Positions 2,246-16,242 of a stretch of DNA of 16,242 nt are shown one piece after another. Position numbers and translations under genes: made by a program. The DNA is from a bacterium (GTDB lineage Bacteria; Tectomicrobia; Entotheonellia; Entotheonellales; Entotheonellaceae): the NCBI GenBank assembly GCA_027294925.1, contig JAPULM010000236.1:1-16242 (forward strand). The letters are read 5' to 3'. Positions within the stretch are counted from its first letter, which is position 1. Each line of letters opens with the position of its first letter. The notes under the pieces are model-generated. The model saw only the letters and a program-made list of their open reading frames with translations. It was not told the DNA's origin and made no database searches.

Positions 2246-2292
2246 TGGGGTGCCGTATGTAGGAGTCTATTGACAGAAAGGAGAAGCGCATC

Positions 2293-2934
2293 ATGACCGA
2301 TGTCGCCATACTCGATCACGCCTATCATTTTACCATGCAACGTTTGCTGACCACCGGACAGGCCCCGCACTATACCGAGTTAGCGGCCGAGCTGGGGTCA
2401 ACCATGGAGGAAGGCAAGCAGCAACTGCACGATTTAATCAACTCGGGGATCCCGGCCTGGGTGCATCCGGATACCGACTACATCGTCTCCTTTGCCCCGT
2501 TTCACAACCTGCCGACGCAGTACCGCATCAGCATCGACGCAGAACAAAAATGGTTTGCCCAATGAGGCTTTGAAGCGCTGGCAGTCTGCTGGCTCTTCCC
2601 GGGCAAAACCATCCACATTGCCACGCCCTGTCTCGATTGCGGCGACCCGATGAGCGTGGAGGTCCAGGATGGCCGCATCCTGCGCGCCGATCCCGAGACG
2701 ATGGTGGGGTACTGTAGTAGTGAAATCGGCGGACCGCCTGAAAATCGAGCCTGGCGTTGAAGCCGCATGAACCTCTTCCGGTCGGAAGAGCACGCTCGGC
2801 AATGGGCCCTGTACGACGCGGCGTACGACGCCAATCTGCAGTCCTTGGCGGCCTACATGGAACGGTTTAGTGGTGAGCGTTTCCGCGCCCGTATTCGCCC
2901 CGACTACATCTCCTGGCTGCGGGCGCAGCCGTAG
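2293..2934 (+). CDS. MerB-family (organomercurial lyase-like) protein with two in-frame TGA codons, predicted double selenoprotein
   Basis: Read through TGA at 2563 and 2758, this frame gives 213 residues, matching the 212-218 usual for alkylmercury lyase. Residues 10-60 form a helical winged-helix-like N-terminus. The catalytic part is VSFAPFHNLPTQYRISID, then WFAQ-U91-GFEALAV, PCLDCGDP (Cys113, Cys116), and AWR-U156-SRMNLFRSEEH. In E. coli plasmid MerB the matching segments are YAWC96ALD99TL, SSHC117AATGAP and SFC159CHVHFF, so both TGAs sit on the two catalytic cysteines. Asp99 is replaced by Glu94. MerB cleaves the C-Hg bond using these thiols and the acid. Each TGA has a SECIS-like hairpin (separate entries), and no other stop or shift occurs. 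ATG 2293 follows AAGGAG. No selA/B/C/D or merA/merR gene is in the window. Alternatives are a decayed MerB, or a homologue acting on another substrate. Confidence 0.85.
2566..2598 (+). promoter_or_regulatory. SECIS-like hairpin after TGA 2563
   Basis: Bases 2577-2583 (GCUGGCA) pair fully with 2587-2593 (UGCUGGC), two pairs being G-U, around the loop GUC. A lower GAAG/CUUC stem (2572-2575 with 2595-2598) closes it beyond a C-U mismatch. The loop starts 18 nt after the TGA, as in E. coli fdhF, whose apex is GCA-GGUC-UGC; here it is GCA-GUC-UGC. This is the kind of element SelB reads to insert selenocysteine. Confidence 0.78.
2761..2790 (+). promoter_or_regulatory. SECIS-like hairpin after TGA 2758
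   Basis: A perfect 7-bp stem, CUCUUCC (2773-2779) with GGAAGAG (2784-2790), closes the loop GGUC (2780-2783). As I recall it, that is the same apical tetraloop as E. coli fdhF. The loop begins 19 nt after the TGA. There is no bulged U in the stem, unlike fdhF. The hairpin overlaps codons for LFRSEE. Confidence 0.78.
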
Positions 2935-8044: not shown

Positions 8045-8425
8045 GCAATTGAGCGGTCATGTCGGATTTTGTCACCATGCTGCCGGTCACGCGTTTTATG
8101 GCGCTTTCCGGTCCCCTTGTCGTACGGTGTGTGACACAGGTGAACAGCGCAGTGGCAAAGAACGCGGCGGTGCCGACGTCCATGTCCGAGCAAAAGGCCA
8201 TCCACTTTACAGGAGATGGTACCTTCAACACCTTAAATCTGTCTCGGAGCTTGCATTTTGTGTTCGGAAGAGTTTAAATAATGAAATCACGTATCGCATG
8301 ATGAAATTCGATAGGGTTACCGATTGGCGAATTAACTGGCTTGACATGGCATTCTGCAAACCGTACGTTTGCAGGGCGGGTGCTGCGACGGCGACACTCG
8401 CATTTGACAGAAGGAGATGATCACA
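8045..8425. other. intergenic region upstream of cupin copy 2
   Basis: No family-like protein in any frame. At 8291-8307, GTATCGCATGATGAAAT matches 12 of 17 positions of the operator-like 17-mer at 1718. A promoter-palindrome combination lies at 8341-8374. The end of the leader (ATTTGACAGAAGGAGA) closely resembles the leader just before the MerB-like gene (ATTGACAGAAAGGAGA). Confidence 0.45.
8341..8374 (+). promoter_or_regulatory. promoter with overlapping perfect palindrome
   Basis: TTGACA at 8341-8346, with a weak -10 (TACGTT, 8364-8369) 17 nt on. A perfect inverted repeat, CTGCAAAC-CGTAC-GTTTGCAG, spans 8354-8374 and would cover the -10. That layout suits repression by a dimeric regulator. 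Transcription would run into cupin copy 2. Confidence 0.5.
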
Positions 8426-9040
8426 ATGGCACAACAGACATCTGTGGTGACGGTATCGCGTCAGGCGGTGATTGACGAGATGATTTGCCGAGTTCGCGCC
8501 GTGGCGCAGAACAACGACATTACCCGGGAGACGTTGGAGGACATCAAGGCCGAAATGGTGCAGGTGGCCAAGCGCAAAGAGCTGTTTCCCTTAGCCGATT
8601 TTCAACCGGAAGGTGAAGCGCCAGGTCGTCAGCCCATGCAACTGCTGCACAAGGATGATGACGGCCAACTTGCACTGTATATGTCCACATCCGTCTCGGA
8701 GCAAAAACCGCCGCCGCACAATCACGCCACCTGGGCCGTGATCGTGGGGATTCAGGGCGAAGAACACAATTGGATTTTCGAGCGTACCGATGATGGTTCC
8801 GTGCCGGGCAAGGGCACGGTGCGTGTCGTAGAAGAGCGCGTGGCAACGCCTGGAACCGGCGTGGCCTTGATGCCCGAGGACATTCATAGCATGCAGGGCA
8901 AGCCCGAAGCGGGCGGTCGTTTGACGTTTCATTTGTATGGCGTCAGCACCAATTTGCAAACCGGGCGAGTGGCCTATAATGAAGCCGATGGCACCTACCG
9001 GCTGTTCCCGCCGGGACGTGAGAATCAAACCGTGGCGTAG
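8426..9040 (+). CDS. cysteine-dioxygenase-like cupin, copy 2
   Basis: A 204-residue cupin of the thiol-dioxygenase type. The start at 8426 is preferred over the in-frame ATG at 8417 because AAGGAG then lies 9 nt upstream instead of touching the codon. The metal site reads PPPHNHATWAVIVGIQGEEHNWIF (His98, His100, Glu112/113), followed by MPEDIHSMQGKPE (His154) and FHLYGV (His169). A helical N-terminus of about 60 residues precedes the barrel. It shares the HNHxxWAV block with the other two cupins but little else, so the three are old paralogues or separately acquired. An Fe(II) thiol or related dioxygenase is likely; the substrate is unknown. Confidence 0.85.
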   Translation: MAQQTSVVTVSRQAVIDEMICRVRAVAQNNDITRETLEDIKAEMVQVAKRKELFPLADFQPEGEAPGRQPMQLLHKDDDGQLALYMSTSVSEQKPPPHNHATWAVIVGIQGEEHNWIFERTDDGSVPGKGTVRVVEERVATPGTGVALMPEDIHSMQGKPEAGGRLTFHLYGVSTNLQTGRVAYNEADGTYRLFPPGRENQTVA

Positions 9041-9164: not shown

Positions 9165-9728
9165 TCATTGTTCCTTGACGAAAAACGGTGTCTCGATATT
9201 CTTCTCCACATCGAATTGCGAGCGTCCAGTGTGGTTGAGATGTATGCCGTAGATGTGCAGGGACACGGTGACGTTCTCGGTGTCATTCGTCACACTGTGG
9301 ATTTCGTGCGGCAGAAACGCCACGATTTCTCCCAGGCTGAAGACCTTTTCGCCGTTCCATACCACTTCAGCATAGCCGGGACGCGAGCCGTCATCCAGGC
9401 GTTTCCAGAACGTATTCGTTTCCAGACCATCAACGCCTGACACCACGGCCCAGGTGCCGTGATTATGCGGCGGGGCGCCACGGCCGGGGAGCCAGGCAAT
9501 AGCGAAGACCGCCAGCGTGTGATCAGACTCTTCGTGTAACAGATGGACGCCAAACCCTTGCTCGGAATCGCACCTGTACAGGTCGGCCGTGAGCCAATTT
9601 TTGGACCTGGCCAGGCATTGGGCCAATGGGCTCACCCTGTTGATGATCTCTTGATCATCGTGCGCCTCGCTTGTAATGGTCCGTAAATTCTGTACGAAAT
9701 CGGAAAGTGTATAGGTCGTGATTGACAT
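9165..9728 (-). CDS. cysteine-dioxygenase-like cupin, copy 3
   Basis: A 187-residue thiol-dioxygenase-type cupin. Metal-site blocks: GAPPHNHGTWAVVSGVDGLETNTFW (His88, His90, Glu103), FLPHEIHSVTND (His144) and VSLHIYGIHL (His158). ATG 9728 follows CAGGAG. It is transcribed toward copy 2 (tail to tail, 10 bp from the carboxyltransferase relic) and follows the rhodanese at 9792-10238 by 63 bp on the same strand, so rhodanese and cupin are probably one unit. Such a pair suggests sulfane sulfur or a sulfinate product being passed on, but the true substrate is not visible. Confidence 0.86.
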   Translation of the reverse strand: MSITTYTLSDFVQNLRTITSEAHDDQEIINRVSPLAQCLARSKNWLTADLYRCDSEQGFGVHLLHEESDHTLAVFAIAWLPGRGAPPHNHGTWAVVSGVDGLETNTFWKRLDDGSRPGYAEVVWNGEKVFSLGEIVAFLPHEIHSVTNDTENVTVSLHIYGIHLNHTGRSQFDVEKNIETPFFVKEQ

Positions 9729-9791: not shown

Positions 9792-10238
9792 TCACACCGC
9801 GGCAGCGATGACGTCAAATCCCGCCTCTTTCCAGGCGGCTCTGCCACCGATGAGGTCAGACACCTCGGTTCGGCCATGTTGAGTCAGGATGCCGGCAGCG
9901 ATTGCCGAGCGGTAGCCATTAGCGCAGTGAATAGCGACAGGACGAGCAGGAGGGATTTCGTCGAGTTGTCGCTTCAGGCGATTCAGGGGAATATGCAGGC
10001 TCCCATCAATATACTTATCGTGGTGTTCATTGACAGTGCGCCCGTCGAGAACGATCGGAGGGGTGGGCGAGGGAAGCTGAGTAGCAAGCTCTGCGGGTGT
10101 GCGTCGCGCCATACATCGGACCGGATCGGGGCGCGTAGCAAGAGCCTGTGCGCCATTGGCAAGGTACCCTACCACACGATCGAAACCGACACGGCCCAGG
10201 CGCATCAGACAGCCGAGATAATATTGTTTTAACAGCAT
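9792..10238 (-). CDS. rhodanese-domain protein (resembles the C-terminal part of persulfide dioxygenase-rhodanese fusions)
   Basis: A 148-residue protein with one rhodanese domain (about residues 47-148). The active-site loop is HCANGYRS with Cys105, and LIGGRAAWKEAGFDV ends the domain. ATG 10238 is chosen because AAAAGGAG lies just upstream. The first 34 residues (YYLGCLMRLGRVGFDRVVGYLANG) resemble the linker before the last rhodanese domain in metallo-beta-lactamase persulfide dioxygenase fusions, where GYxxVxGYLxGG is common. The gene may be the surviving C-terminal piece of such a fusion, now with its own start. The CxxGYRS loop suggests an active sulfurtransferase handling sulfane sulfur. 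Cupin copy 3 follows downstream. Confidence 0.85.
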   Translation of the reverse strand: MLLKQYYLGCLMRLGRVGFDRVVGYLANGAQALATRPDPVRCMARRTPAELATQLPSPTPPIVLDGRTVNEHHDKYIDGSLHIPLNRLKRQLDEIPPARPVAIHCANGYRSAIAAGILTQHGRTEVSDLIGGRAAWKEAGFDVIAAAV

Positions 10239-10339
10239 GCGATTCTCCTTTTCTGCATATTTCCTGCCACTTCCCCGCCGCGACAACCAAATCGATTATC
10301 GGCAAGCACTGGGTCAGCAAGACGGACTTTTGTGGTCAT
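10229..10339 (-). CDS. possible 36-aa small protein overlapping the rhodanese start
   Basis: ATG at 10339 follows a strong AAGGAGGAG site. The frame begins MTTKVRLADPVLADNR, contains three Cys, ends CC, and overlaps the first bases of the rhodanese gene. I recognise no family. It could be a leader peptide that couples translation to the rhodanese, or the stump of a deleted gene. Support is the ribosome site alone. Confidence 0.35.
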   Translation of the reverse strand: MTTKVRLADPVLADNRFGCRGGEVAGNMQKRRIACC

Positions 10340-10907: not shown

Positions 10908-12488
10908 ATGGCCCAGAAGATATCGCCGCAAGCCCTGCACGATCTCCTGCAAGGCAACGCCCCGTTTGCCCTCATCGACGTGCGCGAAGCGGGTGAACAC
11001 AACAGTTCGCACATCCCCGACTCCAGCTTGATTCCCCGCCGCTGCCTGGAATTTCAGATGGCTAGCGCTGTGCCGGTGCAACAGGTGCAGGTGGTCTTGT
11101 ATGACGACAATGGGGACCGCGCCGACTTGGCCGCATCGACCCTCGAGGCGATGGGCTACATCCAGGTGTTGGTTCTGGATGGCGGCATCAACCGGTGGAC
11201 CACGCAGGACTATCCGACTGAGTGGGGCAGCAACGTCATCAGCAAAGATTTTGGGGAAAAGATGGAGGTGGTGCACCACGTGCCCGAGATTGAGGCGACG
11301 GAGTTGCACGAACGCATCGAACGGGGCGACAAGCTGGTCATTCTGGATACTCGCACCCCGGAAGAGTACCAGCGCTTTTGTATTCCCGGCGGCCGCAGTG
11401 TTCCCGGCGGCGAATTGGCGCTGCGCATTACCGACATTACGAAGGATCTGGATGCGGACACCACGGTGATTGTCAACTGCGCCGGCCGTACCCGTAGCAT
11501 CATCGGCACCCGAGTGCTGCAGAGAATGGGACTGCGCAATCTCTACGGCTTGAAAAACGGCACCTCGGGTTGGTTATTGGCCGGCTACCAACTGGAAACG
11601 GGAGCCGACCGCTTGGACCTGCCCGAGCCGTCTGCCGCAGGTTTAGCGGCAGCCGAAGCCTATGCCGATCGTCTGGCCGCTGAAGACGGGGTGCGCAACG
11701 TTGATATCCCGAGCCTCCGGAAGATGTTGGACAAACGGCAGCGGGAGATCGTCTACTTCATTGATGTGCGTACGATCCGGGAATACGAGACGGGCCACAT
11801 TCCCGGCTTCCGCTGGTTCCCTGGCGGTCAGGTGGTGCAACGCTCCGACGACGTGCTGGCAGCCAAACATTGCCCGGTGGTGTTTGCCTGCGATGGCAAG
11901 GCCCGAGCCACGATTACCGCTTCCTGGTATCGGCAGTTCGGCTTTGAGGAGGTGTTCGTGGTGCAGGGCGGCACCAGGGCCTGGGCCGCGGCGGGCTTGT
12001 CTCTGGAAGCAGGGGTTGTTGAACCGACACCCTTTGGCCTGGCACAAGCCAGGCAGCAGGTACCGCACCTCTCTCCGCAATCCTTGCAGGCTGCCCAGCC
12101 TCCGGTGGTGCTCTTTGTGGACACCAGCCAGGACTTTGCCCGTAGCCATGTACCGGGTGCCCGTTGGCTCTCCCGCAGCTTCCTGGAACTGCAAATTGGC
12201 ACGATGGCGCCGTCAAAAGAAACCGCCATTGCCGTCACTTGCAGCGATGGCCGTAACGCCGCACTGGCTGGCGCCACTTTGCAAGCGTTGGGCTATGCAA
12301 ATGTCTCGGTGCTGGAGGGTGGTATGGACGCTTGGCAACAGGCCGGTCTGCTGGTTGAAAGCGGACTCTCCGGGGTGATGCAACCGCCAACAGACGTGGT
12401 GGCGTCAGGACCGGATCGCAACTACGCCGACATGGCCAATTACCTGCGCTGGGAAACCGCCCTGGGCGAGAGGTACGCCACGTCATAG
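10908..12488 (+). CDS. four-domain tandem rhodanese sulfurtransferase
   Basis: A 526-residue cytoplasmic protein made of four rhodanese domains, roughly residues 5-110, 125-230, 255-365 and 385-480. Each has the ALIDVRE/GHIPG-type entry motif and a closing GG...W motif. The active-site Cys is present in domain 2 (NCAGRTRS, Cys191), domain 3 (ACDGKARA, Cys328) and domain 4 (TCSDGRNA, Cys445). In domain 1 the position is Asp66 (LYDDNGDRA), so that domain should not carry persulfide. Rhodaneses move sulfane sulfur from donors such as thiosulfate or persulfides to acceptors; several domains in a row suggest relay or multi-acceptor use. ATG 10908 follows AAGAAAGG. It shares a promoter with the 64-aa ORF and diverges from the other rhodanese/cupin unit. 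Confidence 0.92.
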   Translation: MAQKISPQALHDLLQGNAPFALIDVREAGEHNSSHIPDSSLIPRRCLEFQMASAVPVQQVQVVLYDDNGDRADLAASTLEAMGYIQVLVLDGGINRWTTQDYPTEWGSNVISKDFGEKMEVVHHVPEIEATELHERIERGDKLVILDTRTPEEYQRFCIPGGRSVPGGELALRITDITKDLDADTTVIVNCAGRTRSIIGTRVLQRMGLRNLYGLKNGTSGWLLAGYQLETGADRLDLPEPSAAGLAAAEAYADRLAAEDGVRNVDIPSLRKMLDKRQREIVYFIDVRTIREYETGHIPGFRWFPGGQVVQRSDDVLAAKHCPVVFACDGKARATITASWYRQFGFEEVFVVQGGTRAWAAAGLSLEAGVVEPTPFGLAQARQQVPHLSPQSLQAAQPPVVLFVDTSQDFARSHVPGARWLSRSFLELQIGTMAPSKETAIAVTCSDGRNAALAGATLQALGYANVSVLEGGMDAWQQAGLLVESGLSGVMQPPTDVVASGPDRNYADMANYLRWETALGERYATS

Positions 12489-15441: not shown

Positions 15442-16242
15442 TCAGATCATGCGATTGACGCCATCGAATGCGGCTGTTTTATAGGCTTCAGCCAGTGTCG
15501 GGTAATTGAACACGGTGTTGATGAAATAGTCGATTTTCCCATGTACGGCCAGCACTGCTTGGCCGATATGCACCAGTTCGGTGGCTCCTTCGCCAATGAT
15601 GTGCACCCCCAGCAATTCACGGGTTTCGAGGTGGAAGATCAACTTCAACAAGCCGGCACTATCTCCAATAATCTGACCGCGTGCAATTTCGCGATAATCC
15701 GCCTTGCCAATCTCATAAGGAACCCCTTCATCGGTCAAATCTTCTTCCGTGCGCCCGCAAGTAGAAATCTCAGGGATGGTGTAAATGCCATAGGGGAAAA
15801 GTGCGGGCACACTGTCGGTTTTCAAGCCGAAGGCGTGGGCGGAGGCCAGACGGCCTTGTTCCATAGAGGTGGATGCCAAGCTGGGAAACCCGATCACATC
15901 GCCAACGGCATAAATATGCTCGACGTTGGTCTGAAAATGATCGTTGACATCGAAACGCCCTCGATCGTTCAATTGAAGCCCTGCTGCGTCCACCTTGAGC
16001 TGCTCGGTCGAGCCGGTGCGGCCAATACTGTAGAGCACCTTCTCGGTCAGGATCTCCTTGCCGCTATCCAGATGGATACGGACATGTTTGCCCCGTTCAT
16101 CATCATATTTTTCGATTTTGCTGACTTCTTCCCCCAGCCGGAGAGTGGCGCGATTTTGGCGCAGATGATGGATCAGGGCGGCGGTGATTTCAGCATCAAT
16201 AAATGATAGCAAGCGCGGACGTTTGTCCACCAGCGTGACCCG
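15442..16242 (-). CDS. sthA: soluble NAD(P)+ transhydrogenase, C-terminal part (runs off the window)
   Basis: 267 codons of a flavoprotein pyridine nucleotide-disulfide oxidoreductase, entering at the right edge. Visible are the NAD-domain segment TLVDKRPRLLSFID, VLYSIGRTGST, the FAD motif IYAVGDVIGFPSLASTSMEQGR, and the dimerisation domain with IPEIST, LLGVHIIGEGATELVHIGQ, and the end TVFNYPTLAEAYKTAAFDGVN. The long HIGQAVL...NYPTLAEAY ending matches SthA and not lipoamide dehydrogenase or mercuric reductase; the MerA C-terminal Cys pair is absent. SthA balances NADPH and NADH in the cytoplasm. The redox-Cys region that is changed in SthA lies outside the window. No terminator is evident after the stop. 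Confidence 0.9.
   Translation of the reverse strand, partial: RVTLVDKRPRLLSFIDAEITAALIHHLRQNRATLRLGEEVSKIEKYDDERGKHVRIHLDSGKEILTEKVLYSIGRTGSTEQLKVDAAGLQLNDRGRFDVNDHFQTNVEHIYAVGDVIGFPSLASTSMEQGRLASAHAFGLKTDSVPALFPYGIYTIPEISTCGRTEEDLTDEGVPYEIGKADYREIARGQIIGDSAGLLKLIFHLETRELLGVHIIGEGATELVHIGQAVLAVHGKIDYFINTVFNYPTLAEAYKTAAFDGVNRMI

Follow-up and report, generated by a model that had tools for sequence, protein, structure and literature searches.

The MerB-like gene and its two in-frame TGA codons

The analysed DNA (henceforth the window) comprises 16,242 nucleotides of contig JAPULM010000236.1 from a bacterium of the Entotheonellaceae, and carries a gene whose predicted product resembles the organomercurial lyase MerB. 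As had been described in an earlier note made from the sequence alone, the frame of 213 residues is interrupted solely by two TGA codons, at residues 91 and 156. It is terminated by TAG; under the standard code, the protein would end at residue 90. The features of the gene are as follows (CDS, coding sequence; Sec, selenocysteine; SECIS, selenocysteine insertion sequence).

2279..2283, + strand: AGGAG, likely ribosome-binding site, 9 nt 5' of the ATG
2293..2934, + strand: MerB-like CDS, 213 residues, predicted Sec at 91 and 156, stop codon TAG
2563..2565, + strand: TGA codon 91, predicted Sec, column of MerB Cys96; 22 further genes with TGA, others with Cys
2572..2574, + strand: Glu94 codon, column of MerB Asp99; nearly invariant in the family alignment
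2577..2593, + strand: first SECIS-like hairpin, GCUGGCA-GUC-UGCUGGC; stem Leu codon CTG in 22/22 genes
2629..2631, + strand: Cys113 codon (within PCLDCG), column of MerB Cys117; invariant in alignment A3
2758..2760, + strand: TGA codon 156, predicted Sec, column of MerB Cys159; TGA in 32/32 main-family genes
2773..2790, + strand: second SECIS-like hairpin, CUCUUCC-GGUC-GGAAGAG; pairing in 99.2% of cells, changes on both sides in three pairs

A GGAG motif within 22 nt upstream of the start was present in 27 of 32 family genes, the window gene counted. Columns were assigned by counting residues off the printed PDB alignment to 3f2g. Residue 91 corresponds to MerB Cys96, Glu94 to Asp99, Cys113 to Cys117, and residue 156 to Cys159 in the PDB alignments, which agree with the placement given by eye in the earlier note. 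The canonical MerB residues are Cys96, Asp99, and Cys159 (PMC8261052; papers are cited throughout for the passages concerned), to which Cys117 was added in PMC12874090. The window protein has the cysteine at column 117, carries TGA at both columns of the thiol pair (which is thus present only if Sec is counted as Cys), and has Glu94 instead of the aspartate at column 99.

The protein scored 69.4 bits against the MerB superfamily model PF03243 (gathering score 27), and its predicted structure has the MerB fold. An NCBIfam scan returned two MerB models (45.3 bits, cut-off 193; 35.5 bits, cut-off 200) and the SaoL model NF040728 (43.1 bits, cut-off 140) as the only matches, all of them below their cut-offs. 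With MerB (PDB 3F0O/3F2F) and MerB2 (5C17), the predicted protein has in common the fold, both mercury-ligand positions, Cys117, and the F-x-S stretch that follows the second ligand; it differs from them by UGA at both catalytic Cys columns and by Glu in place of Asp99, and the structure alignments gave 17–22% identity.

Recurrence, hairpins, and selenocysteine machinery in relatives

A protein search yielded 393 relatives, and the 120 listed ones were classified. Short proteins with Cys at column 91 made up 74 of these, and 42 had Trp at both columns, which, going by the protein records, we interpret as a code 4 translation of TGA. The other listed relatives were P0015 (short, with Gly), P0077 (short, with Trp), P0073 (Cys/Cys), and P0116 (odd). 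Of the 76 short database relatives, 67 stop exactly one residue before column 156 with no indels, one ends earlier, and eight extend two or four residues further, which agrees with small insertions present in some relatives. At the DNA level, all 14 loci in genome contigs had Cys at column 91 and an in-frame TGA at column 156.

Genomes of three phyla were covered. In the first (297 genomes), 17 genomes had a match at a total of 21 places, 19 of them with two TGAs, one with one TGA, and one with none. The TGA-free place (L047, in genome G032, which has hgcA) is a short relative matched up to residue 82, and is either truncated or broken by the assembly. The second phylum (251 genomes) had three genomes with a match and five places (three double-TGA, all in one genome, and two single-TGA), and the third (249 genomes) had one match with one TGA. 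Besides the window gene, 22 double-TGA genes in 16 genomes were thus available. In-frame stops were checked jointly in 32 main-family genes including the window gene (20 double-TGA and 12 single-TGA), with L012 (TAG at codon 11), L014 (lacking its 5' part), and the short piece L047 left out. Column 156 was TGA in all 32 genes and column 91 in 20, and every in-frame stop before residue 185 was a TGA at one of these two columns. L012 itself carries the TGA at column 156, and its TAG at codon 11 could reflect a later start, decay, or an error.

Both columns therefore hold an in-frame TGA where homologues have Cys, with conserved flanks; nearly all relatives seen have TGA at column 156, and column 91 switches between Cys and TGA. 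Homologues of the two kinds named in the earlier note, with TGA and with Cys at both columns, were found, and its argument that a decaying gene would not gain its only stops at these positions was borne out by the 22 other genes. Since the same columns are TGA in relatives from other genomes, a chance origin of the pair was excluded, and both the decay of an ordinary merB and sequencing errors for TGC or TGT were ruled out.

The SECIS-like hairpins reported in the earlier note are present just 3' of each TGA and have a G in the apical loop. Hairpin energies were compared with synonymous shuffles at these sites and at nine control offsets, giving for the window gene z-scores of −2.95 after TGA91 and −2.64 after TGA156. 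Mean z-scores after TGA156 were −1.94 in 20 double-TGA genes and −1.55 in 13 Cys/TGA genes; after column 91 they were −0.81 and −0.39, respectively (controls, −0.59 to +0.38). The spacing from the TGA to the start of the loop motif in the window is 19 nt for TGA156 (GGUC) and 18 nt for TGA91 (GUC); in Escherichia coli fdhF, it is 18 nt for TGA140 (GGUC). The second hairpin was aligned in 37 genes selected by a motif that demanded TGA at column 156, a set which gives no measure of TGA frequency at that column; the double-TGA gene L057 was missed by the motif and is outside the hairpin counts. A helix of seven pairs with a loop of four bases (GGUC in 35 genes, GUGC in two) was kept in all 37, and the paired fraction of 99.2% of cells was reached by 0/500 shuffles. 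After TGA91, a helix around (G/A)GUC or CGUG was kept in 22 aligned genes. Rfam models matched the window three times, each time under the gathering score and never with a SECIS.

Codons in the stems were frozen. After TGA91, the stem Leu codon was CTG in 22/22 genes, and the Leu codon five positions further was CTG in 2/22; Cys91 genes with Leu at the stem position had CTG in 5/8. After TGA156, Ser was encoded by TCG in 35/35 (background 0.30), Leu by CTC in 30/30 (0.31), and Arg by CGG in 35/37 (0.33). The rows behind all these codon counts are related to each other, and the counts are hence not independent.

Evidence for selenocysteine machinery was taken from the host genomes of relatives, in which tRNA-Sec, selA, and selB were looked for. 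selA was over the cut-off in 28/28 hosts searched vs. 1/14 control genomes. Among double-TGA hosts, tRNA-Sec was found in 12/16 (144 candidates per genome scored) and selB in 14/15 (G694 excluded). All 13 Cys91/TGA156 hosts (L009 host excluded) had tRNA-Sec (best matches 65–79 bits) and selB over the cut-off. The tRNA-Sec cut-off was also passed by 5/14 controls; at an E-value of 1e-10, tRNA-Sec was found in 2/14 controls, and the best matches of the 13 Cys91/TGA156 hosts were all below 1e-10.

Relation to SaoL and to other MerB-like lineages

SaoL (NF040728), the MerB-like organometallic lyase of the SAO system, belongs to the MerB superfamily and contains Sec, like the predicted window protein, and is already in print as a MerB-type selenoprotein with one Sec (PMC13188914 Table 1, PMC9312934). 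It has Cys at the Cys96 column and its single Sec in a CU pair (PMC13188914), whereas the window gene has TGA at both columns and Arg before residue 156. Membership in SaoL was ruled out by the score given above and by this column pattern. In two loci over the SaoL cut-off (L078 and L079), the Cys96 column holds Cys and the Cys159 column Cys-TGA, as read from the motif; because their Sec lies at the Cys159 column, the known Sec of SaoL is the counterpart of codon 156. The part not found in print is therefore Sec at the Cys96 column.

Whether such a protein had been described was left open in the earlier note. MerB-type selenoproteins are in print; in the consulted literature on MerB or organomercurial lyase selenoproteins, neither a Sec at the Cys96 column nor a MerB with two Sec was found, with Haft and Gwadz 2023 and Haft and Tolstoy 2025 outside the comparison; PMC5029168 makes no mention of mercury, MerB, or a lyase. 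A 2020 table of prokaryotic selenoproteins lists an “Organic mercuric lyase MerB2” (PMC7435645 Table 4), a MerB-type selenoprotein as here; in the table this is a bare entry without sequence, Sec number, or position, and it may be SaoL, the family of the window gene, or another. An inventory of 2026 counts 119 prokaryotic selenoprotein families, the vast majority with one Sec and a small subset with two or three (PMC13188914). MbdU (NF045648), a metal-binding double selenoprotein, and other two-Sec families also have two Sec (PMC13188914); MbdU is a family distinct from the window protein, whose NCBIfam matches are confined to the MerB and SaoL models. The replacement of both catalytic thiols by Sec in one enzyme would be unusual.

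In a distant lineage of eight loci (L084, L085, L087–L091, and L093; the parse leaves out L086 and L092), both MerB cysteine columns are likewise TGA, and the second TGA is followed at 19 nt by a GGUC hairpin. The TGA pair and the hairpin are shared with the window family, but Asp is kept at column 99 and the lineage lies far from the window family in the tree, which suggests a second origin of a double-Sec site. In four further loci (L094–L097), which form a separate MerB-like family, both columns are Cys and the motifs resemble KWFGECPVE ... CD-NYFF or KWYGECAVE ... CD-NSFF.

The tree was calculated by a quick search on 71 rows, contains no canonical MerB, and has long rows flagged for L081, L079, and L084; database proteins with Trp were scored as double-TGA. 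The state of column 91 changes repeatedly, the double-TGA label accounting for ten changes, at least six of which are forced by starred branches, and the window gene clusters with Cys91 genes and a few double-TGA genes. The Gly at column 91 of P0015, which is known from the protein only, would be one base from TGA if its codon were GGA.

Interpretation and genomic context

Both UGAs are likely read as selenocysteine, as had been proposed in the earlier note, because the TGA pair recurs in 22 other genes, Cys/Cys relatives align in register, codons are frozen, the hairpins are paired, and the hosts of relatives have selenocysteine machinery. Overall, the window gene quite probably encodes a MerB-fold, double-Sec enzyme that would use two selenols to cleave carbon-mercury bonds. 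In MerB, Hg binding and proton transfer fall to Asp99 and the two cysteines (PMC4525700), and the Sec/Glu/Sec site is predicted by analogy to do the same. Each UGA would be decoded as Sec via the SECIS-like hairpin just downstream; the selenolates of Sec91 and Sec156, taking over from Cys96 and Cys159, would bind R-Hg+; a proton passed on by Glu94, which stands where MerB has Asp99, would break the C-Hg bond, upon which R-H would be released; and Hg(II) would be held between the two selenols until removed by cellular thiols or a further partner. Among small mimics of the lyase, selones break Hg-C bonds faster than their sulfur analogues (PMC11639659). A mercury site built from two selenols would be a test both of the gain from selenium for Hg-C cleavage and of the release of tightly bound Hg.

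Several results weigh against this interpretation. With regard to decoding, tRNA-Sec was not found in 4/16 double-TGA hosts among the 144 candidates scored per genome, and selB was not found in the double-TGA host G022 among the four of eight candidates scored. As 263/297 genomes of the first phylum carry selB, its presence there is weak evidence and serves as a consistency check only. The shuffle signal of the first hairpin across the family is weak, and its helix showed no covariation in the 22 aligned genes, which is uninformative because six of its seven pairs never vary. In the second helix, the three pairs with two-sided changes were matched by 11/500 shuffles and the number of pair types by 81/500, the latter being not unusual. 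The nearest neighbour of the window gene in the tree, P0015, has Gly at column 91. With regard to function, the aspartate at column 99 is replaced by Glu94, no mer family was over the cut-off among the window proteins scanned (10 with Pfam and 7 with NCBIfam), MerA was over the cut-off in 4/29 hosts and in none of the other 25, and the neighbours at 35 loci (open reading frames (ORFs) called by a simple length rule) contained, besides the gene itself, a single recurring cluster, at 3/35 loci (an ABC-transporter ATPase by eye).

The absence of mer matches, the rarity of MerA, and the Glu at the proton-shuttle column also favour the alternative that survives best, in which a double-Sec protein of the MerB fold has another job, be it as a diselenide redox pair or on another soft metal or metalloid or another organometallic; a review considers most uncharacterised prokaryotic selenoproteins to be redox proteins (PMC13188914). 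We regard this alternative as unlikely, yet as a serious contender. Against it, the TGAs lie exactly where MerB has its two mercury ligands, and do so in two distant lineages, and hgcA (E-value up to 1e-60) was enriched in double-TGA hosts, with 11/15 vs. 74/282 other genomes of the same phylum (Fisher p = 0.0003). Hosts of the distant lineage had hgcA in 5/8 vs. 80/289 others (p = 0.046), three genomes (G060, G090, and G155) belonging to both host sets, and 0/13 Cys/TGA hosts had an hgcA match. The enrichment statistics come from one phylum, ignore kinship and genome size, and concern an association examined post hoc.

That the TGAs are true stops, leaving a decaying merB-like gene or products of 90 and 155 residues, is very improbable. 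The 67 database relatives ending one residue before column 156 are in line with such stops, as are the TAG in L012, the short piece L047, and a short-chain dehydrogenase fragment in the neighbourhood of the window gene. Against this, 22 other genes share the TGA pair at these columns, the downstream stretch is conserved in protein and codons, and the 32 genes have no further stop before residue 185. Reading of UGA as another residue, e.g., Trp under code 4 as apparently in the 42 Trp/Trp records, has a negligible probability and was ruled out, as other relatives carry Cys at these columns, TGA terminates 3/11 window ORFs and 10/35 family genes, and the hosts have selA and mostly tRNA-Sec.

For the double-Sec lyase, a broader proposal may be made, to which we give slightly less than even weight: that two or more separate MerB lineages have Sec as both mercury ligands, and that the resulting enzyme forms a hidden demethylation arm in microbes, many of them hgcA-bearing methylmercury makers, missed by surveys requiring Cys. 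At least one survey dropped merB genes without Cys96, Asp99, Cys117, and Cys159 (PMC12874090), and a survey with these demands would therefore discard the double-TGA genes described here; Cys-based gene surveys in general would miss double-Sec MerB-type enzymes. If the lyase function is true, methylmercury breakdown in such organisms is undercounted. How MerB works in organisms without MerA is asked in PMC8261052, a question on which the 25/29 hosts without MerA over the cut-off bear.

In the remainder of the window, the ORF at 15442–16230 (−) reached a MerA score of 141 (cut-off 454); it is a partial flavoprotein extending to the window end, and fits better to the Si-specific NAD(P)+ transhydrogenase, its closest model (387.8 bits, cut-off 465). 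The short-chain dehydrogenase fragment at 830–1084 (−; PF00106, 84 residues) is apparently a broken gene. A neighbouring TPR protein shares 86% identity with a database protein; among the 120 of 7820 matches listed, the highest with an organism in its name was from Candidatus Entotheonella palauensis, at 65%. Three ORFs at 1124–1669 (−), 8417–9040 (+), and 9165–9728 (−) are alike by eye (HNH...W stretch), had no Pfam or NCBIfam match, and have a look that we take to be that of cysteine dioxygenases. Rhodanese genes lie near these look-alike ORFs at 9792–10286 (−) and 10908–12488 (+, four rhodanese stretches), and together they possibly form a sulfur-metabolism cluster.
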